A DNA stretch of 64,000 nucleotides from Pseudolysinimonas yzui (GTDB lineage Bacteria; Actinomycetota; Actinomycetes; Actinomycetales; Microbacteriaceae), in contig NZ_BNAI01000003.1 of the NCBI RefSeq assembly GCF_014653215.1, positions 287,066 to 351,065 on the forward strand. Direction: 5' to 3'. The notes under the pieces were generated by a model, which was not told the DNA's origin, did no database searches, and was given only the letters and a program-made list of their open reading frames with translations. Below are positions 24,405 through 41,048 of the stretch, piece after piece (the stretch's first letter is position 1; each line of letters opens with the position of its first letter). The position numbers were made by a program, and so were the translations under genes.

Positions 24405-24896
24405 GTGCCCGCTTCCGACGAGGTCGACCGCATCGTCGACGCGTGGTCGCGCGAACGTCCCGACATCGACTTCACGCCGTTGCAGGTGCTGTCGCGGGTC
24501 GACCGCCTCGCCCGCCACCTCGATCGGTCGCGTCGTTCGGCGTTCACCTCCTCGGGTCTCGAGCCGTGGGAGTTCGACGTGCTCGCGGCGCTGCGCCGCG
24601 CGGGTGACGCCGCCCAGCTGAGCCCGAAGGCGCTCCTGCAGCAGACCCTCGTCTCGAGCGGCACGATGACGAACCGCATCGACCGGCTCGTCGATCGCGG
24701 GCTCGTCGAACGCCACACCGACCCGCACGACGGTCGCGGAGTGCTCGTCGTGATGACCGACGCCGGGCGGCGGCAGGTGGATGCCGCGATCTCGGTGCTC
24801 GTCGCCGAGGAGGCCGAGATGCTCGCGGGCCTGTCGAAGGCCGACCAGGAGCGGCTGAGCGGCCTGTTGCGGAAGCTCAGCCTCGACTTCGACTAG
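24405..24896 (+). CDS. MarR-family regulator
   Basis: 163 aa. The winged-helix core runs FDVLAALRRAGDAAQLSPK, SSGTMTNRIDRLVDRGLVER and the wing HTDPHDGRGVLVVMT with the DxRxxxV-like signature. No Shine-Dalgarno precedes the GTG at 24405; AATACT (24393-24398) lies 6 nt upstream and would give a leaderless transcript. It ends 2 nt before the P450 gene in the same direction, so control of that P450, and perhaps of the nearby beta-lactone-like operon, is plausible. Confidence 0.86.
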   Translation: MPASDEVDRIVDAWSRERPDIDFTPLQVLSRVDRLARHLDRSRRSAFTSSGLEPWEFDVLAALRRAGDAAQLSPKALLQQTLVSSGTMTNRIDRLVDRGLVERHTDPHDGRGVLVVMTDAGRRQVDAAISVLVAEEAEMLAGLSKADQERLSGLLRKLSLDFD

Positions 24897-24898
24897 CC

Positions 24899-26164
24899 AT
24901 GCCTGTCGCCGAAGATCTCGACGCGCCTCCCCGGGAGCGGCGGCTGTCTCTCTGGCGCGACGGAATCGGTGACGGGGCCGCCGCCCACGAGCACCGGCTG
25001 CTGTCGGCCGCCCGCCCCGCGCTCCCGCTGCTCAACTGGCTCGGCCAGTTCGCGAACCCGATCATGAGAGTGCCGGGTCTCGGCTGGATCACCGCCGACC
25101 CCCGCACGGCGCGCGCCCTGCTCAACGACCCGGAGCACCTCACGCTGCTCTCCGAAGGCGGAGTCGGCCACCTCTGGGCGCAGATCCTGGGCGACTGGGT
25201 GCACGACCTGTTCGACGGGCCCGGGCATCACGACCTGCGCACCCGCAGCCGGGAGCTGTTCACCGAGAAGACGTCGGCCGCGTTCGTGACCCGGGCCTGG
25301 GGTGCTCGCCTGGCGGAGGCCCGGGCCTCCTTCGAGGCCGGCGAGGAACTCGACCTCGCCGACCTGTCGCGGGTGCTCGTCGGGCACATGGTCGTCACGC
25401 TGCTCGGCCTCCCGATCGAGAGCGGCCGCGGGGATGACGCCTACCGCGAGATCTTCGCGACCGGCGAGCAGCTGGCATCCATCGCCCTCGGCACGACCGC
25501 CGACACCACCCTCCCTCCGCAGAAGATCGCGGTGGCCCGCGAGATCGTCGAACGGCTCACCGCCCACATCGGCGACGCGTTCGGAACCGCGCATCCCGAC
25601 ACGATCATCGGCCGCTGCCGCGAGATCGGCCTCACCGTGCAGCAGACCCAGGGCCTGTCGACCCTGCTGATGGTCGCCGGCACCGAGACGGCCGCCTCGG
25701 CGATGGCACGCACCGCCGCCCTGCTGTTCGACTCCGGCGAGCAGCACCGGCTGCTCGCGATGCCCCAGCACCGGGATGACGCCATCCGTGAGGCGCTGCG
25801 CGTCACCAGCCCGGCGCCTCTCATCGGGCGCTCCGTGCTCGCCGATCTCGACGTCGCCGGCCGGCGGCTGCGGGCCGGCGAACGCGTCATGGTGCTGACC
25901 TGGACGGCGAACAACCTCGCCGGTCCGTACCGGATCGACCGCCCGTACCTTCCTCAGCACCGCCAGTTGTGGTTCGGCGCCGGACGGCACCTCTGCCTCG
26001 GCGGCCCCCTCGCCCGGGCCGAACTCGGCGCGATCGTCGACCTGCTGCTGGGCGACGGGCGGCCGTTCCGGGTCGTCGAGCGCCGCTACGGCCGCAAGGT
26101 GCTCATCCCCGCCTACTCCTCGCTCGTCGTTCAGAAGGACCGCGGGCCCCGGAGAGAGGAGTAG
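24899..26164 (+). CDS. Cytochrome P450
   Basis: 421 aa soluble bacterial P450. The I-helix oxygen-binding segment is MVAGTETAAS, the K-helix ExxR is EALR, and the haem-ligand loop FGAGRHLCLGG places the axial thiolate at Cys366. Needs ferredoxin partners not encoded here. Its N-terminal stretch (PLLNWLGQF...IMRVPGLGWI) resembles that of the P450 inside the OleA-like operon, so the two are probably paralogues acting on related lipid-like substrates. Translationally adjacent to the MarR gene. Confidence 0.9.
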   Translation: MPVAEDLDAPPRERRLSLWRDGIGDGAAAHEHRLLSAARPALPLLNWLGQFANPIMRVPGLGWITADPRTARALLNDPEHLTLLSEGGVGHLWAQILGDWVHDLFDGPGHHDLRTRSRELFTEKTSAAFVTRAWGARLAEARASFEAGEELDLADLSRVLVGHMVVTLLGLPIESGRGDDAYREIFATGEQLASIALGTTADTTLPPQKIAVAREIVERLTAHIGDAFGTAHPDTIIGRCREIGLTVQQTQGLSTLLMVAGTETAASAMARTAALLFDSGEQHRLLAMPQHRDDAIREALRVTSPAPLIGRSVLADLDVAGRRLRAGERVMVLTWTANNLAGPYRIDRPYLPQHRQLWFGAGRHLCLGGPLARAELGAIVDLLLGDGRPFRVVERRYGRKVLIPAYSSLVVQKDRGPRREE

Positions 26165-28236: not shown

Positions 28237-29151
28237 TCACCAGCGCTCGGCGCCCTCGAGCGTCGTCGGGGTGGGGCGGTAGCCGAGGCGGGTGCGGGCG
28301 GCCGTGAGGTCGAGGGTGCGCTCCATGCCCACCTGACTCACGGCGTAGCGGGTGAGGGCGGGGCGCCGACGGCGGATGCGGGCGGCCGTCTCGAGGGATG
28401 CCGCGAGGGCGAAGGCCGACCGGTACGGGATCGACGCGATGCGCACCCGCATCCCACGGCGCGTGAACACCTCGCGTAGCACGGCGGCGAGCACCACCGG
28501 GGAGTCGTCGGCGACGTTGTAGGTGCCGCGCGGGGTGCCTGCGTCGAGCGCGCGTCGCACCGCGAGCACGAGGTTGTCGATGTGGGTGAGCGAGTGCCGC
28601 ACCTCGGCGCCCTCGGGCAGCACGAGCCGTCCCCGCCGCACCCCCGCCAGAAGCCGGGGCAGCAGGGTCGTGTCACCGGGGCCGTAGACGGCGTGCGGGC
28701 GCAGGATGACGGCATCCGTTCCCGCGAGTTCGAACTCGGCGAGCGTCTTCGACTCCGAGTAGGTCGAGAGGAATCGCCGCACCGGCGCCGCCGACTCGGG
28801 CACGTCGATGTTGGGCACGAACGCGTCGTACACGCTCGACGTCGACAGGTGCACGATGCGCGCCCCCGGGAAGCTGCGCACCACCGTGCGCGTGCCGTCG
28901 CGGTTCGCCTTCAGGGCCGCGGCGAGGGGCGCCCAGTCGTCGGCGAGCGCCGCGCAGTGCACGACCGCCTCGAAGTCGCGGTCGGCCCGCAGCGGACCGC
29001 TGTCGAGATCCCAGTACCGGTACCGGGCCCGCGGGTGCGACCAGCCCCCCGCCTGCCGTCCGAATCCGACGACCTCGTGGTCGGCATCCGCGAGCGCCGT
29101 CGCCACGGCACCGCCGATGAACCCGCTCGCTCCGGTCACTGCGATCCTCAC
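28237..29151 (-). CDS. OleD-like NAD(P)-dependent reductase (extended SDR / epimerase fold)
   Basis: 304 aa extended short-chain dehydrogenase: Rossmann GASGFIGG (7-14), catalytic Ser in HLSTSSVYD and YxxxK as YSESK. Segments LRPHAVYGPGDTTLLPRL, SLTHIDNLV and the C-terminal RLGYRPT match what I remember of OleD, which reduces the 2-alkyl-3-keto acid made by OleA to a beta-hydroxy acid. It is the last gene of a five-gene coupled operon with OleA-like and OleC-like genes; GTG at 29151 overlaps the upstream stop (GTGA). Without that context it would be called only an NAD-dependent epimerase/dehydratase. Confidence 0.75.
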   Translation of the reverse strand: MRIAVTGASGFIGGAVATALADADHEVVGFGRQAGGWSHPRARYRYWDLDSGPLRADRDFEAVVHCAALADDWAPLAAALKANRDGTRTVVRSFPGARIVHLSTSSVYDAFVPNIDVPESAAPVRRFLSTYSESKTLAEFELAGTDAVILRPHAVYGPGDTTLLPRLLAGVRRGRLVLPEGAEVRHSLTHIDNLVLAVRRALDAGTPRGTYNVADDSPVVLAAVLREVFTRRGMRVRIASIPYRSAFALAASLETAARIRRRRPALTRYAVSQVGMERTLDLTAARTRLGYRPTPTTLEGAERW

Positions 29152-30788
29152 GACAGGCTCCGGGCGATCCCGGCGACGGCGGCACGGTCGAGTTTGCGCG
29201 AACGCCCGGCCCGCGGCAGCTCGGGCACCGCGACGACGAGGTCGGGCAGCGCCCCGGCGTCGATCAGTCCCGGCAGGGCGCGCGCGACGGCGCGGGCGAC
29301 GGGATGCGACGAGTCGGGATGCGCGGGCGGATCATCGGGGACGACGAGCACCACGATGCGGTCGTCGCCGATCGCGTCGGGCACTCCCGTCATGACCGCT
29401 TCGCGCACGCCCGGGAGGCCGGCGATCACCGGCTCGTAGAGTCCCGGGTACACGTTCTGCGTGCCGCGGATGAACATGTCCTTCTTGCGCCCGAGCAACA
29501 CCAGCTGGTCGCCGTCGAGACGCGCGAGGTCGCCGGTGCGCACCTCCGCCAGCGGGGGTTCGCCGAGATACCCCGCGGCGAGTCCCGGGCCGCTGAGCAC
29601 CAGCTCCCCGGTGTCGAGACGGGCGCGCACACTCGGCACCAGACGCCCTGCGTAGTCGCCCTCGGCGTCGCGACGCGCCAGCTTCTCGGCGCCGTCGGCG
29701 ATCGCGACAGGCAGGATCTCGGTCATCCCGTACACCGCACGGATCGTGACCCCGGGAAAGCGGGCGAACGCGCGCTCCAGCAGCGGGCGCAGCACCGGCG
29801 CTCCGCCGAGGATGAGCGTCTCGAGCCGCAGCGGGGCGAGGTGCGGGGCGTCGTCGAGCAGCCGCAGGATCGCGTCGAGCGCCGCCGGCGGGGTGAACAG
29901 CACCTCGGCGTCGGGCAGCAGCCCGAGGTAGCGCTTCGGCGACGCCCCCGGGTCGAGGCCGGGAGTCGGCATGATCCAGTGCGCGCCCGCGATGAGCGCC
30001 GGGATGCCGACCATCAGCTGGTCGGTGACGACGCGTTGGCCGGCGCGCATGCTCGAAGCCGCGACATCCGCGAGCCCGGCGCCGAGCGACCCGCGGGTGT
30101 GCACCACGGCCCGGGGCGCGTCCGTCGTGCCCGACGTGAACACGATCAGCGCCTCGTCGGACTCTCGCCCACCCGTGGGTTGAGGAGCGCCCGGCGCAGC
30201 CGGACGCGTCTCGAAACCGTCCCCGGGGTAACCCACCGGCGGGGTTTCGAGACGCGTCGCCCTTCGGGCGGCGCTCCTCAACCCGCGGACTGGGAGGGCG
30301 CCTCTGGGCACACCCGGAAGCCAGGGGCCGACGTAGAGGTGGCGGGCGTCGGGGACGAGGCGGGCGTAGGGGGCGAGATCGAGCCCGCGCCGCCGGGCGA
30401 GCGGACGCAGGGGGCCCGACGACCCGAAGTAGAGGAGCGACTCGGCGGCGACCCACTTCGGGGCGGCGAGGGCGGTGCGGGCTCGGAACAGCGCCTCCCC
30501 GGCCCCGGGGTCGGCGAACACGACGGTGCCGCCGGCGAGCACGATGGCGAGCGCGAGGATGACGGCATCCGGTCCCGGGCGCACCGAGAACAGCACGCGG
30601 TCGCCGCGCTGCATCCCTTCGGCCCGCAAGCCGGCAGCCGTCGACCGGATCGCGGCACCGAGTTCTGCGTAGGTGTGGGTTTCGAGACGCGTCCGCCGAA
30701 GGCGGGCGCTCCTCAACCCGCGGGTGACCGCTGCCGCCGATCCGTGCCGATCGCAGGCGGCGAGCACGGCATCCAGAAGGTCGGTCAT
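29148..30788 (-). CDS. OleC-like adenylate-forming enzyme (candidate beta-lactone synthetase) with repeat-derived inserts
   Basis: 546 aa ANL-superfamily enzyme. P-loop IVFTSGTTDAPR (215-226), A5 motif YGMTEILPVAIADG, A7 RTGDLARLDGD, hinge GRKKDMFIRGTQNVYP and C-terminal Lys in GRSRKLDR are present. The LPVA after the A5 Glu matches remembered OleC sequences, which close beta-hydroxy acids to beta-lactones. Three 42-bp palindromic repeats are translated in frame as residues 24-37, 169-182 and 191-204; the last two lie just before the P-loop. Flanked by OleD-like and P450 genes with 4-nt overlaps. An ordinary acyl-CoA ligase is the alternative. Confidence 0.75.
   Translation of the reverse strand: MTDLLDAVLAACDRHGSAAAVTRGLRSARLRRTRLETHTYAELGAAIRSTAAGLRAEGMQRGDRVLFSVRPGPDAVILALAIVLAGGTVVFADPGAGEALFRARTALAAPKWVAAESLLYFGSSGPLRPLARRRGLDLAPYARLVPDARHLYVGPWLPGVPRGALPVRGLRSAARRATRLETPPVGYPGDGFETRPAAPGAPQPTGGRESDEALIVFTSGTTDAPRAVVHTRGSLGAGLADVAASSMRAGQRVVTDQLMVGIPALIAGAHWIMPTPGLDPGASPKRYLGLLPDAEVLFTPPAALDAILRLLDDAPHLAPLRLETLILGGAPVLRPLLERAFARFPGVTIRAVYGMTEILPVAIADGAEKLARRDAEGDYAGRLVPSVRARLDTGELVLSGPGLAAGYLGEPPLAEVRTGDLARLDGDQLVLLGRKKDMFIRGTQNVYPGLYEPVIAGLPGVREAVMTGVPDAIGDDRIVVLVVPDDPPAHPDSSHPVARAVARALPGLIDAGALPDLVVAVPELPRAGRSRKLDRAAVAGIARSLS
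30177..30218 (+). repeat. 42-bp palindromic repeat, copy A
   Basis: Arms GGGTTGAGGAGCGC and ACGCGTCTCGAAACC enclose a core CCGGC-gca-GCCGG that can form its own hairpin. On the minus strand it encodes codons 191-204 of the OleC-like protein (GFETRPAAPGAPQP), exactly 14 codons in frame. It is opposite in orientation to copies B and C. Confidence 0.9.
30243..30284 (-). repeat. 42-bp palindromic repeat, copy B
   Basis: Arms identical to copy A when reverse-complemented (GGTTTCGAGACGCGT and GCGCTCCTCAACCC), but with core CGCCC-ttc-GGGCG. Encodes codons 169-182 (GLRSAARRATRLET). Copies A and B are head to head with 24 nt between them, together a 108-bp inverted repeat. Confidence 0.9.
30678..30719 (-). 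repeat. 42-bp palindromic repeat, copy C
   Basis: Same arms as copy B, with core CCGCC-gaa-GGCGG. Encodes codons 24-37 of the OleC-like protein (GLRSARLRRTRLET), again exactly 14 codons. Confidence 0.9.
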
Positions 30789-31933
30789 GACCGCTCCACG
30801 ACGAGCGAGGCGTAGGAGGGGATGAGCACGCCGCGCGACGGGCGACGCGACACCACGCGCAGGGTGGGGGTGCCGAGCAGGGCGTCGAGGGTGAGCCGGA
30901 TCTGCGCCATCGCGAGCGGCGCCCCGAGGCAGAAGTGGCTGCCGGCCCCGAACCAGAGCTGCTTGAGCTGTGCGGCGGGGTTGGTCGCCGGATCGAATTC
31001 GCCGAGCGCGCGGTTGGCCCAGTACGTGCCGAGCAGGATGCGCTCCCCCGGCCGCACCGCGACTCCCCCGATCGTGCGCGGCTGCACGACCGACCGCAGC
31101 ATCATCGGCGACGGGGTGGTGACGCGCAGTCCTTCGGCGACCGCCGCATCCACCTGCTCCGGCGAGGCCGCGAGCCGCGGCAGCCAGCCCGAGTCGATGA
31201 GGATCGCGGCGAGCCGCGGCACGTACGACACGATCGTCTCGGTGCCGGTGAGCACGAACGCGCCGACCGCCCCGAGGGCTTCGCGTTCGTCGAGGCCGAG
31301 CGCCCGCATCCGCCCCGGCACGGTCGACTCGTCGCCCGCGTAGGCGCGTCGCGCGTGCTCCCCCAGTTCGGCGAGGATGCCGCGCGCGATCCCGAGCTGA
31401 CGGGGCGTCAAGCGCGGGCGGGCGAGGGTGACGAAGCCCGTCACCCGCGACACCCGGGCGAACAGCTCGTCGTCGATGACCCGTTCGTCGAGCCCGACCA
31501 GGCGCGCGATCACCGCGGAGGCGCCGCGCCGGGAGTGCGCGACCAGGTCGACCCGCTCGCCGCGGGCGAGTGCATCGGCGAGGTCCCGGGTCGCCGCGCC
31601 GAGGCTCTCGGCCACCAGGGCGTCGACGAACGCCGGGGCGAACAACGGGCCGAGCTTGCGCCGCAGCGCCGCATGCTCGGCGCCCTCCATGTTGAGCAGC
31701 ACGCTCGGGCCGAGCACCGGCGTCCAGAGGTCGCTGGGCGCCCCCGGCCCGTTCTTGGTGAACCCCTCCGTGTCGAGGAGGGTCGCCCGCAGCAGGTCGG
31801 CGTCCTTCACCAGCACGCCGAGCCCCGGGATGCGGCGCACGGGTGAGCGGATCGCCGACAGCAGCGGAAAGGCGATCGGATGCGCGGCGCGCAGCACGCG
31901 CTGCTCCCACCGGGTGGCCGACGCGATGCTCAT
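30785..31933 (-). CDS. Cytochrome P450 of the OleA-like operon
   Basis: 382 aa, compact. I-helix FVLTGTETIVS, K-helix EGLR (ExxR), haem loop FGAGSHFCLGAP with Cys335 as axial ligand. The N terminus (HPIAFPLLSAI...RRIPGLGVLV) resembles the P450 at 24899-26164. Situated between the glycosyltransferase and OleC-like genes with 4-nt overlaps on both sides, it probably hydroxylates or desaturates the alkyl chain of the operon's product. Redox partners are not encoded here. Confidence 0.88.
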   Translation of the reverse strand: MSIASATRWEQRVLRAAHPIAFPLLSAIRSPVRRIPGLGVLVKDADLLRATLLDTEGFTKNGPGAPSDLWTPVLGPSVLLNMEGAEHAALRRKLGPLFAPAFVDALVAESLGAATRDLADALARGERVDLVAHSRRGASAVIARLVGLDERVIDDELFARVSRVTGFVTLARPRLTPRQLGIARGILAELGEHARRAYAGDESTVPGRMRALGLDEREALGAVGAFVLTGTETIVSYVPRLAAILIDSGWLPRLAASPEQVDAAVAEGLRVTTPSPMMLRSVVQPRTIGGVAVRPGERILLGTYWANRALGEFDPATNPAAQLKQLWFGAGSHFCLGAPLAMAQIRLTLDALLGTPTLRVVSRRPSRGVLIPSYASLVVERS

Positions 31934-32712
31934 CTGATGTCCACGTGCTCCGGGCGGTAGGCGTGATCCTTGTACCAGAGCAGGGTGTTCTTCAACCCCC
32001 AGGCGCGCACCCGACGGGATGACCCGTAGACGACGACATCCGATCGGCGGGCGTAGGCGCGGGTGAGGCGGCGCACGGCGTTGACGAGGGCGCGATCCTC
32101 GTGCACGTCTTCGATTCGCGTGCGCGGGAACCCGCCTGCCGCGACATACAGCTCGGCGGTGATGCCGACGTTGCAGCCCGCCGCCATCAGGTACGGCCCG
32201 AGATACTCGGGGCCGCGGTTGCCGGGGCGGATGCGGCCGAACGCCTCGGCGAGGTGCACGGCACCGCGCAACGCGAGTCGGGTCAGCCAGCCCACGCCTT
32301 CGTCGCGGCGCGGTACGAGTTCGCCGCCGACGAGACCGAGGCCACGGCCGCCCTGCGACGACGGCGTCAGCGACCGGCGGATCGACGCCGTCCAGTCGGC
32401 GCGCGGCAGGCAGTCGGCGTCGGTGCGCGCGAGCAGCGTCGCCCCCGCGGCGATCGCGGCGCGCATCCCCGTGTCGGCTGCCGCGCCGGTGCCCTTCTGC
32501 GGCTCGTCGATCACCCGCCACCGGGTCAGCCCGCGCTCGACGATGAACGAGCGGATGACGTCGCCCGACCCGTCGCGCGACCCGTTGTCGACGAACACCG
32601 CGTCGAAGTCGGCATCCCGTTGCCCCGCGAGCGCCTCGAGGGTGGGACGGATGCCGGCCGCCTCGTCGTACACCGGCACCACGACGGCGAGGGTCCCACC
32701 ACGATCGGCCAC
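31930..32712 (-). CDS. Family 2 glycosyltransferase
   Basis: 260 aa GT-A fold. VVVPVYDEAAGIRPTLEAL opens the nucleotide-sugar site, RTDADCLPRADW carries the DxD-type metal motif, and EDVHEDRALV contains the likely base. No membrane anchor is evident. Between OleA-like and P450 genes in a coupled operon, it may glycosylate the hydroxylated lipid product; donor sugar unknown. GTG at 32712 overlaps the upstream stop (TAGTG). Confidence 0.83.
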   Translation of the reverse strand: MADRGGTLAVVVPVYDEAAGIRPTLEALAGQRDADFDAVFVDNGSRDGSGDVIRSFIVERGLTRWRVIDEPQKGTGAAADTGMRAAIAAGATLLARTDADCLPRADWTASIRRSLTPSSQGGRGLGLVGGELVPRRDEGVGWLTRLALRGAVHLAEAFGRIRPGNRGPEYLGPYLMAAGCNVGITAELYVAAGGFPRTRIEDVHEDRALVNAVRRLTRAYARRSDVVVYGSSRRVRAWGLKNTLLWYKDHAYRPEHVDIR

Positions 32713-33716
32713 TAGAGCCGCACCACCATGAGACCGAGGGAGATGCCGCCGGCGAGGCCGATCATCAGCACGAGCGACCCGGGGCCGATCATGCCGCTCT
32801 CGCGGGCGAGCCGCAGTTGCAGCGGCAGGGTCGCCGAGGCGATGTTGCCGTGCTCGGCGACCGTGATGACGGTGCGGTCGTCGCGCACCCCGAGCCGGTC
32901 GAAGATCGGACCCAGGTAGGGCAACGCCACCTGGTGGATGGCGACGAGGTCGAAGTCATCCATCGTGTAGCCGGTCTCGCGCAGCATCCGCATCACCGGC
33001 TCGGGGCCCAATTCGAGGAACGCCCTCTGCAGCCCCGCGCCGTCCATGTGGAAGTAGGCGGCATCCGGATCGTGGGTGCGCATCGTGCCGCCGCCCGGCA
33101 GGGTGCCGACCGCCCAGTGCCGCGACTCGGCGAAGAACCGCGACGCCCGGATGCCCGCCTCGGGATCGTCGGAGGCTTCGAGCACGACCGCGGCGCCGGC
33201 ATCCCCCATCACATACCCGGGGAACGACGGCAGGAACTGGGCCGGATCGCCCAGCCGCCAGCGCACCGACACCGACGTCTTCTCGCCGCTCGCGACGAGC
33301 ACGCGACGGTATTGCCCGGTGCGGATGAGGGCGTCGGCGACCTGCATGCCGTTGAGCACCGAGTTGCAGGCGTTCTTCACGTCCATGACGGGAGCGGTGA
33401 GGCCGAGTTTCGCGGCGACGATGTGACTCGTGGCCGGTTCGACGAGGTCTTGTGCGGCGGCGGTGAACAGCACGAGGTCGATGTCGCCCGGGCTCTCGTC
33501 GAGCGCCTGCCGCGCTGCCGCCACCGCGAGATCGGAGGCCTGCCAGTCATCCGGGGCGATGTGCACGCGCTCCACCCCGGTCATGCGTGAGATCAGGCCG
33601 GTCGCCAGTCGCATGCCGGGGTTCTCGGCTTTCAGGCGCTGCTCGGTCTCGGCGGTGGCCCTCACCCGCTCAGGAAGGTGCACCCCGAGTGCGGCGATTC
33701 GGGTCGACGCGGACAT
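32712..33716 (-). CDS. OleA-like beta-ketoacyl synthase III homologue (thiolase fold)
   Basis: 334 aa. Catalytic Cys117 in VKNACNSVLNGMQVA, His261 in AIHQVALPYL and Asn291 in AEHGNIASATLP form the KAS III triad. Glu93 in DLVEPATSHIV sits where OleA carries the glutamate donated across the dimer for head-to-head Claisen condensation of two acyl-CoAs, which plain FabH lacks. Expected product: a 2-alkyl-3-ketoacid for the OleD-like and OleC-like enzymes. First gene of the operon; the ATG follows a TAGGCT -10 by 7 nt, so it is probably leaderless. FabH-like starter synthase is the alternative. Confidence 0.78.
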   Translation of the reverse strand: MSASTRIAALGVHLPERVRATAETEQRLKAENPGMRLATGLISRMTGVERVHIAPDDWQASDLAVAAARQALDESPGDIDLVLFTAAAQDLVEPATSHIVAAKLGLTAPVMDVKNACNSVLNGMQVADALIRTGQYRRVLVASGEKTSVSVRWRLGDPAQFLPSFPGYVMGDAGAAVVLEASDDPEAGIRASRFFAESRHWAVGTLPGGGTMRTHDPDAAYFHMDGAGLQRAFLELGPEPVMRMLRETGYTMDDFDLVAIHQVALPYLGPIFDRLGVRDDRTVITVAEHGNIASATLPLQLRLARESGMIGPGSLVLMIGLAGGISLGLMVVRL

Positions 33717-33796: not shown

Positions 33797-35170
33797 TCAA
33801 AGGGGCACGGTCATGCCGGTTGTCGGCTGGGGGCGGGGCGGTGTCGTTCGTCTTCGGAGTCTGGCGGCGGCTCGGGATCGGGCGGGCATCGGGATGGGTC
33901 GCTGGTCGAGGTCAACAGAGCGGGGTGGGATGGCGGCGAATCCGTGGACGGGATCTCGGTTGATGGTCCATCCGTTGTCGTGGATGAGCATGTGGTGGTG
34001 TCGGCAGAGGAGGAGTCCGTCGCGGGTGTCGGTCGGCCCGCCGTGTTTCCAGGGGATGCGGTGGTGGGCTTCACACCAGGAGGCGGGGCGGTCGCAGTCG
34101 GGGAAGCGGCATCCGCCGTCGCGGGCGGCGAGCACGTCGCGTTGCTTGGCGGAGAACAGGCGACGCGTCACTCCGAGTCGGAGGGGTTCGCTGTCGTCGG
34201 CGAAGTGGATGGGGACGATGCCGGTGTCGCAGATGTGTTGTTCGGCGGTGGGGATCGAGATGGCTTCGGTCTGGTCGTGGATGAATGCCGGTCCGCGGCG
34301 TTCGCGCAGGTCACGGTCGGTGACCAGCACCCGCACCGCGTGACGGCGGGCGCCGAGCAGTCGGCCGGGGTCGGCTTCGGTGCCGATGCGGATCAGGTCG
34401 ACGAAGGTGTCGAGGGCGATCTGCCCGAGGCTGCGCTCGTCGGCCGCCAGTTTCTCGGCCCGTGCCTGCTGTTCGGCGTCGACGAAACGGGGTCCGCCAC
34501 GCCGGGGTGAGGTGGCGGCGTCGTAGGCAGCCGACACGATCGCGGCCGATGCCGGGTCGAGCAGCCCGGAGAGGTGGGTCATCCCGTCGGAGAGGGGAGT
34601 GAGGGTGAGGTATCGCTTGTCGCGCAGCATCCGCTCCCGATCCCGCACCCCCGCGGTGTCGAGGTCATCACGCAGTTCCCGGGCCCGCGCCGCGAGCTTC
34701 TCGACCGTCATCGTCGGCGCCAACAGCGCCAGCTCGGTGGCGGCGTCGGCGAGATCATCCGCCGCGACATCCTCCGTGGGGGATCCCAACCCGGCCTTGA
34801 TGACGTCGGCCTTCACCACCGACACCCGCCCCGAAGCGACCTCGGTGCCGACCGCTGCGAGCCACGGGTCGGCATCCACCGTCAGCAGTTGCCCGACACG
34901 CACCAGCGTCTGCGACTCCCGCTTCGAGACCCCCGACACCTGCTCCACCAACTTCTCGGGCGTGCCCGCGCCGAGGCGTTGGGCGAGACCGCCGAAGCCG
35001 TCTTCCCGCCGGGAACGATGCTTCACCTCCGCCGCGAACGACCCCAGCGACGCCTCCACCAGTCGCCGCAACTCACCCAACTCACGGGCACCCGTCAGCA
35101 GCGCGTCATCATCGAGCACCCGAGGGTCAGCCGCCAGCCACGAGGCCAGACCGGGGGCGGAAGAAGACAT
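33797..35170 (-). CDS. DUF222 / HNH endonuclease-domain protein (13E12-repeat type)
   Basis: 457 aa. A long helical DUF222 region (about 25-330) precedes a C-terminal HNH motif: CRFPDCDRPASWCEAHHRIP followed by WKHGGPTDTRDG and LLCRHHHMLIH, with two zinc-type cysteine positions. Such genes occur in many copies in actinobacteria and resemble the mycobacterial 13E12 family. Function is unproven; DNA cleavage is inferred from the motif. An imperfect LexA-type box lies 20 nt upstream, matching the known SOS control of mycobacterial 13E12 genes. ATG at 35170. Confidence 0.88.
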   Translation of the reverse strand: MSSSAPGLASWLAADPRVLDDDALLTGARELGELRRLVEASLGSFAAEVKHRSRREDGFGGLAQRLGAGTPEKLVEQVSGVSKRESQTLVRVGQLLTVDADPWLAAVGTEVASGRVSVVKADVIKAGLGSPTEDVAADDLADAATELALLAPTMTVEKLAARARELRDDLDTAGVRDRERMLRDKRYLTLTPLSDGMTHLSGLLDPASAAIVSAAYDAATSPRRGGPRFVDAEQQARAEKLAADERSLGQIALDTFVDLIRIGTEADPGRLLGARRHAVRVLVTDRDLRERRGPAFIHDQTEAISIPTAEQHICDTGIVPIHFADDSEPLRLGVTRRLFSAKQRDVLAARDGGCRFPDCDRPASWCEAHHRIPWKHGGPTDTRDGLLLCRHHHMLIHDNGWTINRDPVHGFAAIPPRSVDLDQRPIPMPARSRAAARLRRRTTPPRPQPTTGMTVPL

Positions 35171-39055: not shown

Positions 39056-39562
39056 GTGAAGCAGATCGCCGTCGAGATCGTCGCGCTGCTCGCCTCACCG
39101 GTGCACCGCTACGAGGGTCGGCCCGGTGATGGTCCCGCCCCTGCTCCCGATGACGAGCTGCGCGACCACCTTGAACTCCGCGCGGGGCTCGGCATCGTCG
39201 GCGACCGGTACTTCAACCAGCCCGCCCACCGGGCGTCATCCGTCACGATCCAGGCGGTCGAGGCACTGGAGGCCGTCGCCGCCGAGCTGGGCATCGCGGT
39301 GCCGGGCCTGCGCCAGACGCGCCGCAACATCCTGCTGCGGGGCGTGGATGTCGACGCCCTCGCCCGCACGACGTTCAGTCTCGACTCCGGCGAGGGTGAG
39401 ATCCGGTTCGGCGACGCACGCCCGGCGAATCCGTGCGCCTGGATGAACACCGCCATCGGCGAGGGTGCTCACCGCGCGCTGCGGCGTCGGGGCGGGGTGC
39501 GCACGGGGCCCCTGGACGACGGGGTGCTGCGCCTCGGCCCGGCCGTGCTGCGCGTCAGCTGA
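39056..39562 (+). CDS. MOSC-domain protein
   Basis: 168 aa. MOSC-type features: HLELRAGLGIVGDRYF, RRNILLRGVDVDAL and the conserved cysteine in RPANPCAWM. MOSC domains handle sulfur or reduced nitrogen substrates with molybdenum cofactor or PLP chemistry; the role of stand-alone forms is unclear. GTG at 39056 is preferred because a TAACGT -10 lies 7 nt before it; GTG at 39050 would add two residues. Its stop overlaps the convergent acyl-CoA ligase by 8 nt. Confidence 0.82.
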   Translation: MKQIAVEIVALLASPVHRYEGRPGDGPAPAPDDELRDHLELRAGLGIVGDRYFNQPAHRASSVTIQAVEALEAVAAELGIAVPGLRQTRRNILLRGVDVDALARTTFSLDSGEGEIRFGDARPANPCAWMNTAIGEGAHRALRRRGGVRTGPLDDGVLRLGPAVLRVS

Positions 39563-41048
39563 AGCGGTTGCGCAGGTCGAGCTTCTTCACCTTGCCCGAC
39601 GCCGTGCGCGGGAGTTCGTCGACGACGACGACGTTCTTCGGGATCTTGTAGCGCGCGATCCGGCCGTTCAGGTGCTCCGCCAGGCGTTCGGTGGTCAGCT
39701 CGGCCCCCTCGCGCAGGGTCACGACCGCCCACGGCGTCTCGCCCCAGCGCTCGTCGGGAATGCCGATCACCGCGGCTCCGGTGACCTCGTCGAGCCCGAG
39801 GATGAGGTCTTCGACCTCGGCGGGGTAGATGTTCTCACCGCCCGAGATGATCATGTCCTTGAGCCGGTCGGCGACGAAGAGGAAGCCCTCGTCGTCGAAC
39901 GACCCGAGGTCGCCGGTGCGGAACCAGCCGTCGGGAGTGAACGCCTCCGCGGTCGCCGCCGGGTTGCCGTGGTACCCGGGGGTGACGTTCGGCCCGCGCA
40001 CCTGGATCTCGCCGATCTCGCCCGGTTCGAGCACCTCGCCGTTCTCGCCCACCACCCGCACCTCGGTGAAGAAGTGCGCCTGGCCGGCCGAGCCCATCTT
40101 CGCGCGGGTGCGCGTCGCCGGCAGGTAGGTCGCGCCGGGCGACGTCTCGGTCATCCCGTAGCCCTGCGAGAACGACAGCCCGCGGGCCTCGAAGGCTTCG
40201 AGCACCCGGGTCGGCACCGGCGAGCCGCCGCAGGTCAGCTTCCCGAGCGTCGAGAGGTCGGTGCTCGCCCAGTCGGGATGCTCGGCCATGAACTGGTAGG
40301 TCGTCGGCACGCCGCTCAGCATCGTGACGCCGTGCTCTTCGATGAGCCGCAGGGCACGGCCCGCGTCGAACGCTCGCTCGAGCACGACGGTGGCGCCCTT
40401 GAGCAGCACGGGCAGCAGCCCCATGCCGAGGGAGGCGGCGTGGAACAGCGGCGAGATCACGAGGGCGACGTCGGTCGAGACGATGTCGGCGTCGATGATC
40501 GTGTTGAGCGCGTTCCAGGTGAGGTTGCCGTGGGTGAGCACCGCCCCCTTCGGGCGCCCCGTGGTTCCCGACGTGTAGAGGATCGCGGCGGGGTCGTCGA
40601 GACCCACCCCCGGCGTTTCTGGTGCCGGTTCGACGGCGGCGAGCGCCGCATCCGCGTCGGCGCCGACCACGATCCGAGGGAGGTCACCGGCCGCCTCCGT
40701 GGCGACGGCGCTCGAGCGGTCGTCGTGCACGAGCAGGCGCGCGCCGCTGTCGGCGAGGATGTAGGCGACCTCGGGTGCCGCGAGCCGGGTGTTGACCGGC
40801 ACGAACACGACACCGACCCGGGCCGCCCCGAACAGCACCTCGACGAACGCGGGCTGGTTCTCGCCGAGGAACGCGATGCGCTCGCCGCGGCCGATCCCGC
40901 GTGCGGTCAGAACGGCGGCCCAGCGTGCCGCGCGATCGGCGAGTTCGCGGTAGGTCACCTGCTCGCCGTCGCCGTGCACGAGCGCGACGACATCTCCCGA
41001 GGTCGCGGCTCGAGTGGTCAGCCAGGAGCCGATTCCACGGTTCTGCAT
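39555..41048 (-). CDS. Acyl-CoA / carboxylate-CoA ligase (ANL superfamily)
   Basis: 497 aa. P-loop ILYTSGTTGRPKGAVLTHGN, A5 YGMTETSP, A7 WFRTGDLGSFDDEG, hinge DRLKDMIISGGENIYPAEVE and C-terminal catalytic Lys in RTASGKVKKLDLR. It activates a carboxylate with ATP and CoA. Downstream member of the minus-strand run SDR, amidohydrolase, acyl-CoA dehydrogenase, MaoC, ligase, so it probably activates the acid handled by that pathway. Unlike the OleC-like paralogue at 29148, it has no repeat inserts. Confidence 0.88.
   Translation of the reverse strand: MQNRGIGSWLTTRAATSGDVVALVHGDGEQVTYRELADRAARWAAVLTARGIGRGERIAFLGENQPAFVEVLFGAARVGVVFVPVNTRLAAPEVAYILADSGARLLVHDDRSSAVATEAAGDLPRIVVGADADAALAAVEPAPETPGVGLDDPAAILYTSGTTGRPKGAVLTHGNLTWNALNTIIDADIVSTDVALVISPLFHAASLGMGLLPVLLKGATVVLERAFDAGRALRLIEEHGVTMLSGVPTTYQFMAEHPDWASTDLSTLGKLTCGGSPVPTRVLEAFEARGLSFSQGYGMTETSPGATYLPATRTRAKMGSAGQAHFFTEVRVVGENGEVLEPGEIGEIQVRGPNVTPGYHGNPAATAEAFTPDGWFRTGDLGSFDDEGFLFVADRLKDMIISGGENIYPAEVEDLILGLDEVTGAAVIGIPDERWGETPWAVVTLREGAELTTERLAEHLNGRIARYKIPKNVVVVDELPRTASGKVKKLDLRNRFS

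Follow-up and report, generated by a model that had tools for sequence, protein, structure and literature searches.

An Ole-like five-gene operon of Pseudolysinimonas yzui with a glycosyltransferase, a P450 and an AMP-forming ligase outside the OleC clade

Relationship to described ole clusters

The operon described here lies in a 64,000-nucleotide stretch of the Pseudolysinimonas yzui genome (contig NZ_BNAI01000003.1, positions 287,066 to 351,065; this whole stretch is called the window below) and encodes an OleA-like ketosynthase III (KS), a GT2 glycosyltransferase (GT2), a P450 (P450a), an AMP-forming ligase (LIG) and an OleD-like reductase (RED). The closest described system is that of Actinoplanes atraurantiacus, for which Smith et al. 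(2020; PMC7064751) report genes for OleA, OleC and OleD together with a glycosyltransferase and a P450, in a genome that has no OleB. They predict a glycosylated, hydroxylated beta-lactone as the product; the OleA of that cluster hydrolysed p-nitrophenyl hexanoate. Compared at the level of gene kinds, the window has the same five in a genome where no OleB was found, but it adds a second P450 gene and a MarR gene, and the signature of its ligase argues against OleC chemistry. An earlier note on this DNA took the gene set to be new, a claim that has to be withdrawn since both the set and the same prediction are published for A. atraurantiacus (PMC7064751). No closer cluster than that one was found in the open-licence PubMed Central (PMC) literature. 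To this the present analysis adds a gene order that is widely and strictly kept, a second P450, a distinctive ligase signature, a substitute ligase in some relatives and the lack of a true OleB in 18 of 19 carriers searched. Our preferred reading, held at just short of even confidence, is that the operon makes a hydroxylated, glycosylated alpha-alkyl-beta-hydroxy fatty lipid and that LIG forms an acyl-CoA thioester rather than a beta-lactone.

The producers of nocardiolactone and lipstatin carry oleACD without oleB (PMC7064751). Their nlt and lst clusters are like the window operon in having OleACD-type genes without OleB. These clusters use two OleA-like subunits, whereas the window operon has one KS. 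Nine oleA-oleBC-oleD operons of Micrococcales (L137-L141, L143, L144, L146 and L148) were also compared, OleBC being assigned by a scan in L140 and by length and position in the others. As in the window, genes for a KS of OleA type that has the catalytic Glu, for an adenylate-forming enzyme and for a reductase of OleD type share one strand, but a long OleBC-type protein replaces LIG, no P450 or GT2 lies between the genes, and the OleC parts of all nine have a His hinge, unlike LIG.

Operon organization and conservation

The window comes from a 3.08-Mb draft genome (G000; 22 contigs, 98.43% complete). From upstream to downstream on the minus strand, the genes encode KS (bp 32712-33716, 334 aa; Pfam ACP_syn_III and ACP_syn_III_C), GT2 (bp 31930-32712, 260 aa; Pfam Glycos_transf_2, PF00535, with a TDADC motif), P450a (bp 30785-31933, 382 aa; Pfam p450, PF00067, with a heme Cys motif), LIG (bp 29148-30788, 546 aa; Pfam AMP-binding and AMP-binding_C) and RED (bp 28237-29151, 304 aa; an NAD(P)-dependent reductase of the extended short-chain dehydrogenase/reductase type, Pfam Epimerase and NF042422). 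They overlap stop to start in the motifs TAGTG, ATGA, ATGA and GTGA. The earlier note read these overlapping genes as a single operon, with which the open reading frames, the junction letters and the order kept in relatives all agree.

Related loci were taken as the best 80 of 123 confirmed, and their genes were placed by tblastn of the window proteins. The order KS-GT2-P450-LIG-RED on one strand is found in the window and in 64 of these 80, which excludes a chance arrangement; among the called genes of the related loci the median gap is -4 bp at each of the four junctions. The order is kept in several actinobacterial families, and by record title the 64 complete loci include Micrococcales, Pseudonocardiales and Streptomyces. 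Eight of the other 16 have the KS and the P450 without GT2 and LIG, and eight are short of at least one gene, five of the latter sitting on stretches shorter than 12 kb. The TDADC motif occurs in 69 of 74 family GT2 sequences and the P450a heme Cys motif in 76 of 76; a search of PDB sequences with GT2 gave two chondroitin synthase chains and no others. At E 1e-50 the KS has matches in 12 of 150 Microbacteriaceae genomes and in 2 of 296 phylum-wide genomes, the window genome being included in both counts. The closest named KS loci are from Microbacteriaceae; among relatives of the ligase, the first that bears a name belongs to a Pseudolysinimonas metagenome-assembled genome.

The ketosynthase

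The residues Cys117, His261 and Asn291 and the OleA-type Glu93, which the earlier note had listed for KS, were located exactly where claimed (Cys117 codon at bp 33366-33368 and Glu93 codon at bp 33438-33440, both on the minus strand). The Cys-His-Asn triad is present in all 80 family KS, which comprise the window's own and those of 79 loci (all but L071), and Glu93-Pro94 in 79, with one gap, and Glu93-Pro94 is invariant in an alignment holding four canonical OleAs. In the Xanthomonas campestris OleA the pair is Glu117-Pro, which only two of the OleAs in a published alignment lack (PMC7064751). In a tree that sampled 27 of the 80 family KS, these group with OleA, which lies on a long branch, and away from FabH on a starred branch (99/97) that does not fix their exact sister. 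The tree grouping and the OleA glutamate bear out the placement of the synthase on the OleA side rather than with FabH.

Other measures weigh against so close a kinship. KS scores 146 bits on PRK09258 (cut-off 285), a model that one Micrococcales OleA clears at 451 bits, and because its score is under this cut-off it is named OleA-like here rather than OleA. It scores 160 bits on PRK09352 (cut-off 249), and Foldseek lists FabH entries ahead of OleA. In VIA-align OleA ranks first, but by a small margin over a Xanthomonas oryzae entry named FabH at 40.2 (other ketosynthase III entries at most 39.6), with five ligand-bound or mutant OleA entries at 37.8-38.5 only; five rows of the alignment from which KS was folded were canonical or near-canonical OleAs, which may tilt this ranking. 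The slightly higher PRK09352 score and the FabH-first Foldseek result would suit a FabH-like enzyme that uses malonyl-ACP (ACP, acyl carrier protein) and resembles Ole proteins only superficially. We consider such an enzyme very improbable, given the conserved Glu93-Pro94, the starred grouping with OleA, the OleA-first VIA ranking and a related KS, 36% identical, that lies within the oleBC-oleD operon of L148. A plain FabH was ruled out by the OleA glutamate, the tree and the VIA ranking. No second KS match was found in G000 at E 1e-20.

The L148 operon (L148:3855-8532) is itself of the oleA-oleBC-oleD kind, with a KS that falls between canonical OleA and the window family. L149:706-4718, from another genome of the family to which the window organism belongs, carries an OleD-like gene, a further gene, a ligase that by eye looks F390-type and a KS that lacks the OleA glutamate; this group is perhaps another adenylation-KS-reductase cassette.

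The reductase and the lack of OleB

The earlier note's description of the reductase as OleD-like holds, in that the best NCBIfam match of RED is OleD NF042422 (115.8 bits, cut-off 580); a second OleD model gives 109.1 bits and the next model 72.4. In the comparison with the nine oleA-oleBC-oleD operons, whose reductases score 280-325 bits on NF042422, RED has 113 bits, and none of the nine reaches 580. In sequence likeness the general Ole reading holds for KS and RED, both of which score below curated cut-offs.

OleB was sought with the OleB part of L140, a query that found its positive controls (G160 at 9.6e-68 and G046 at 2.9e-98). This genome-wide search, which the earlier note had proposed, gave no match at E 1e-6 in the 22-contig draft of G000, so that the absence of OleB claimed from the window stands; an OleB hidden elsewhere in the genome is ruled out within the limits of a draft assembly. 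The 19 carriers, G000 included, comprise G026, G196 and G197 with a variant gene set and G137, recognised by GT2, P450, LIG and RED. Ten of the 19 had no OleB match and eight had weak matches only (at most 78.8 bits), and the sole carrier with a true OleB is G043 (324.6 bits), where it lies about 2 kb from an OleD match on the same contig. That the lactone would survive, as had been argued from the missing OleB, does not follow, because the identity of LIG as an OleC is itself weakened.

The ligase compared with OleC

LIG had been called OleC-like on the motif TEILPVA. The motif is present and LIG is sister to OleC, and to that extent the description is sound; it fails in that LIG lies outside the OleC clade and is without the OleC hinge signature. 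Among 31 OleCs found by similarity, none of them characterised and none an NltC or LstC, the A8 hinge is His in 30 and an N(I/V)YP loop occurs in none. Of the 70 family ligases, 69 have both an Asp or Glu hinge and R(G/K)..N(I/V)YP, and the one that does not is a fragment of 280 residues. The loop of LIG itself reads GRKKDMFIRGTQNVYP (bp 29445-29492, minus strand), and the genome's own acyl-CoA ligase L095 has an Asp hinge and NIYP as well. The A8 Asp has a hinge role in such enzymes, and the A10 block Lys is present in the aligned LIG rows. A review (PMC8388817) describes a pantetheine tunnel of aryl-CoA ligases that contacts motif A8 and names the A10 lysine as a key catalytic residue. From its CoA-ligase-like A8 loop, LIG is likely still equipped for thioester formation.

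Profile scores point the same way. On the Xanthomonas OleC model LIG has 58.6 bits against 278.5 for one Micrococcales OleBC; on PRK09274 the two have 104 and 347 bits, and on a general model of acyl-CoA ligases 111 and 133. Both LIG and this canonical OleBC are below the NCBIfam OleC cut-off of 900 bits; NCBIfam cut-offs alone were dropped as a criterion, as canonical Micrococcales OleC and OleD fail them too. Two ligase trees were built with 24 and 14 of the 70 ligases and 9 and 18 of the 31 OleCs, and in the second the 18 OleCs form their own starred clade (99) that excludes the 14 family ligases. In favour of a lactone, LIG groups with OleC in both trees (93/87, and a Shimodaira-Hasegawa approximate likelihood ratio test value of 83, unstarred) and a single group of LIG with L095 is rejected (p 0.015); one OleC, L185, has Asp at the A8 hinge. 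A search of PDB sequences with an OleC domain at E 1e-20 gave two feruloyl-/fatty-acyl-CoA synthetase chains only. A separate AMP-binding, acyl-CoA ligase-like gene at bp 39555-41048, unlinked to the operon, is the top match in the genome to the OleC model (96.4 bits, far below the cut-off).

Loci with a substitute ligase

The eight KS and P450 sets without GT2 and LIG (L029-L033, L037, L038 and L046) belong to Herbiconiux, a Microbacteriaceae, Psychromicrobium and Agromyces. In seven of them (L029-L033, L037 and L038) one F390/PaaK-type ligase family takes LIG's place, and no LIG was found there; its representative in L029, with 336 bits on TIGR02304 (cut-off 251.9), is related to F390 synthetase. 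These loci are like the window in their KS (53-61% identical), their P450 (54-65% identical) and an OleD-like reductase in the locus, but differ in the F390/PaaK-type ligase that replaces LIG and in having no GT2 of the window family. Since an F390-type gene accompanies the KS and P450 pair, an activating enzyme recurs with the KS even where the ligase family is another one. The Agromyces loci (L038 and L046) have two other glycosyltransferase-like genes directly upstream of the KS, which in L038 are HpnI-like (95 bits) and MGT-like (69 bits), both below cut-off; among the genes scanned in L029, no glycosyltransferase was recognised for the Herbiconiux-type loci. An SfLAP gene is present in five variant loci (L029, L030, L032, L033 and L037; PF11139 for L029), while none turned up in the window or at any of the remaining loci. 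The Psychromicrobium locus L031 has a 761-aa gene that resembles PRK06849 (203 bits, cut-off 406).

The pathway of Smith et al. (2020) would have KS condense, RED reduce, LIG close the ring and the P450s and GT2 decorate, to yield a glycosylated, hydroxylated beta-lactone as the end product. Descent from an oleACD set, suggested by the position of KS and LIG in trees with OleA and OleC and by OleD as the best match of RED, is in its favour, as are the 18 of 19 carriers, the window genome included, without a true OleB and the same prediction published for the same gene set (PMC7064751). LIG, however, is outside the OleC clade without the OleC hinge signature, it has 58.6 bits on an OleC model that gives 278.5 for one OleBC, and an F390/PaaK-type ligase substitutes for it in seven loci. 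On these sequence comparisons lactone closure is doubtful and is the weak link of the scheme; a beta-lactone product is somewhat weakened, and we hold it to be a real possibility that falls appreciably short of an even one.

A proposed pathway

In the preferred reading, an alpha-alkyl-beta-hydroxy lipid, a head-to-head condensation of two acyl-CoAs by KS would give a beta-keto product, from which RED would make the beta-hydroxy acid by reduction. P450a and P450b (below) would hydroxylate a chain, and GT2 would glycosylate the hydroxyl made by the P450s. LIG may activate a carboxylate, either of an incoming fatty acid or of the beta-hydroxy acid, through an adenylate to the CoA ester. Against this route, the operon has no acyltransferase able to use the CoA ester, and the A. 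atraurantiacus OleA, the one tested from a cluster of this gene set, gave no condensation with any acyl-CoA offered, in assays for which stable protein was scarce (PMC7064751).

A CoA-ligase-like A8 loop without the OleC hinge signature also leaves room for a substrate-supply role of LIG. It could then provide an unusual acyl-CoA, while the beta-keto acid would lose CO2 to a ketone or secondary alcohol and the product would be a glycosylated long-chain secondary alcohol. OleA products without partner enzymes are known to lose CO2, which counts for this route. But in 64 of 80 loci RED stands together with the four remaining genes, it matches OleD, and OleD reduces the acid (PMC7064751); a secondary alcohol is an unlikely product.

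The second P450, the MarR gene and genomic context

A second P450 gene, P450b (bp 24899-26164, plus strand, 421 aa, heme Cys present), and an adjoining gene for a MarR-family regulator (bp 24405-24896, plus strand; Pfam MarR_2) go with the operon locus; neither these two genes nor the repeats in the LIG gene (below) were remarked upon in the earlier note. In the window two plus-strand genes lie between P450b and RED. Relatives of P450b, distinct from P450a, are near the operon in 48 of the 80 loci (26 upstream on the opposite strand, 14 downstream on the opposite strand and 8 upstream on the same strand), with the heme Cys motif in 43 of 44 sequences; MarR relatives are present in 6 of 80. The loci with P450b upstream on the same strand are the eight of Streptomyces (L075, L080, L085 and L087-L091), where the operon is embedded in a longer cluster. 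Its order, from a scan of L085 and by clustering in the other loci, begins with a gene like those of flavin monooxygenases and a pair of unassigned genes, continues with genes for PurF, a fatty acyl-AMP ligase, an ACP and a DUF6506 protein, and ends with P450b and the five genes; a PurM-like gene is added in six of the eight. In Arthrobacter and Paenarthrobacter (L077, L081, L084, L092, L093 and L094) the operon lies inside the ribosomal spc operon, where SecY and adenylate kinase genes flank it on one side and a gene for an M24 peptidase (probably map) on the other. With carriers among Streptomyces and Arthrobacter, hosts suited to laboratory work are at hand. In the window a DUF222/HNH endonuclease gene (bp 33797-35170) directly precedes KS and shares its strand.

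Palindromic repeats in the ligase gene

The LIG gene contains three in-frame copies of a palindromic repeat, built as GGGTTGAGGAGCGCC, a stem loop and GACGCGTCTCGAAACCC. One is at an N-terminal site (bp 30677-30719, minus strand) and two are at a linker site (bp 30242-30284, minus strand, and bp 30177-30219 in the opposite orientation, plus strand). Aligned homologues show that the N-terminal copy is within the LIG coding sequence, and at both sites homologous ligases carry corresponding peptide repeats, whose number varies. Residues 190-204 of LIG were modelled with a predicted local distance difference test (pLDDT) score below 50. G000 has 16 matches to the repeat, of which three are in the LIG gene, two in other called open reading frames and 11 outside called open reading frames. 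Rickettsia palindromic elements insert into genes, and the LIG repeat recalls them; a listing of open-licence PMC papers gave nothing on the palindromic element in this family.

Implications for the operon family

The family may represent a separate Ole branch, in which the thioester chemistry of an OleC-related ligase was retained or had never been lost, and in which head-to-head fatty condensation would lead to a class of glycosylated, mycolate-like alpha-alkyl-beta-hydroxy lipids of actinobacteria in place of olefins and beta-lactones, a suggestion that we make with more doubt than belief. Because the LIG family (69 of 70 ligases) keeps a CoA-ligase-like A8 loop seen in 0 of 31 OleCs, the step from OleACD without OleB to a beta-lactone is unsafe for this operon family. 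The choice at stake is between a new class of glycolipid and a glycosylated beta-lactone.

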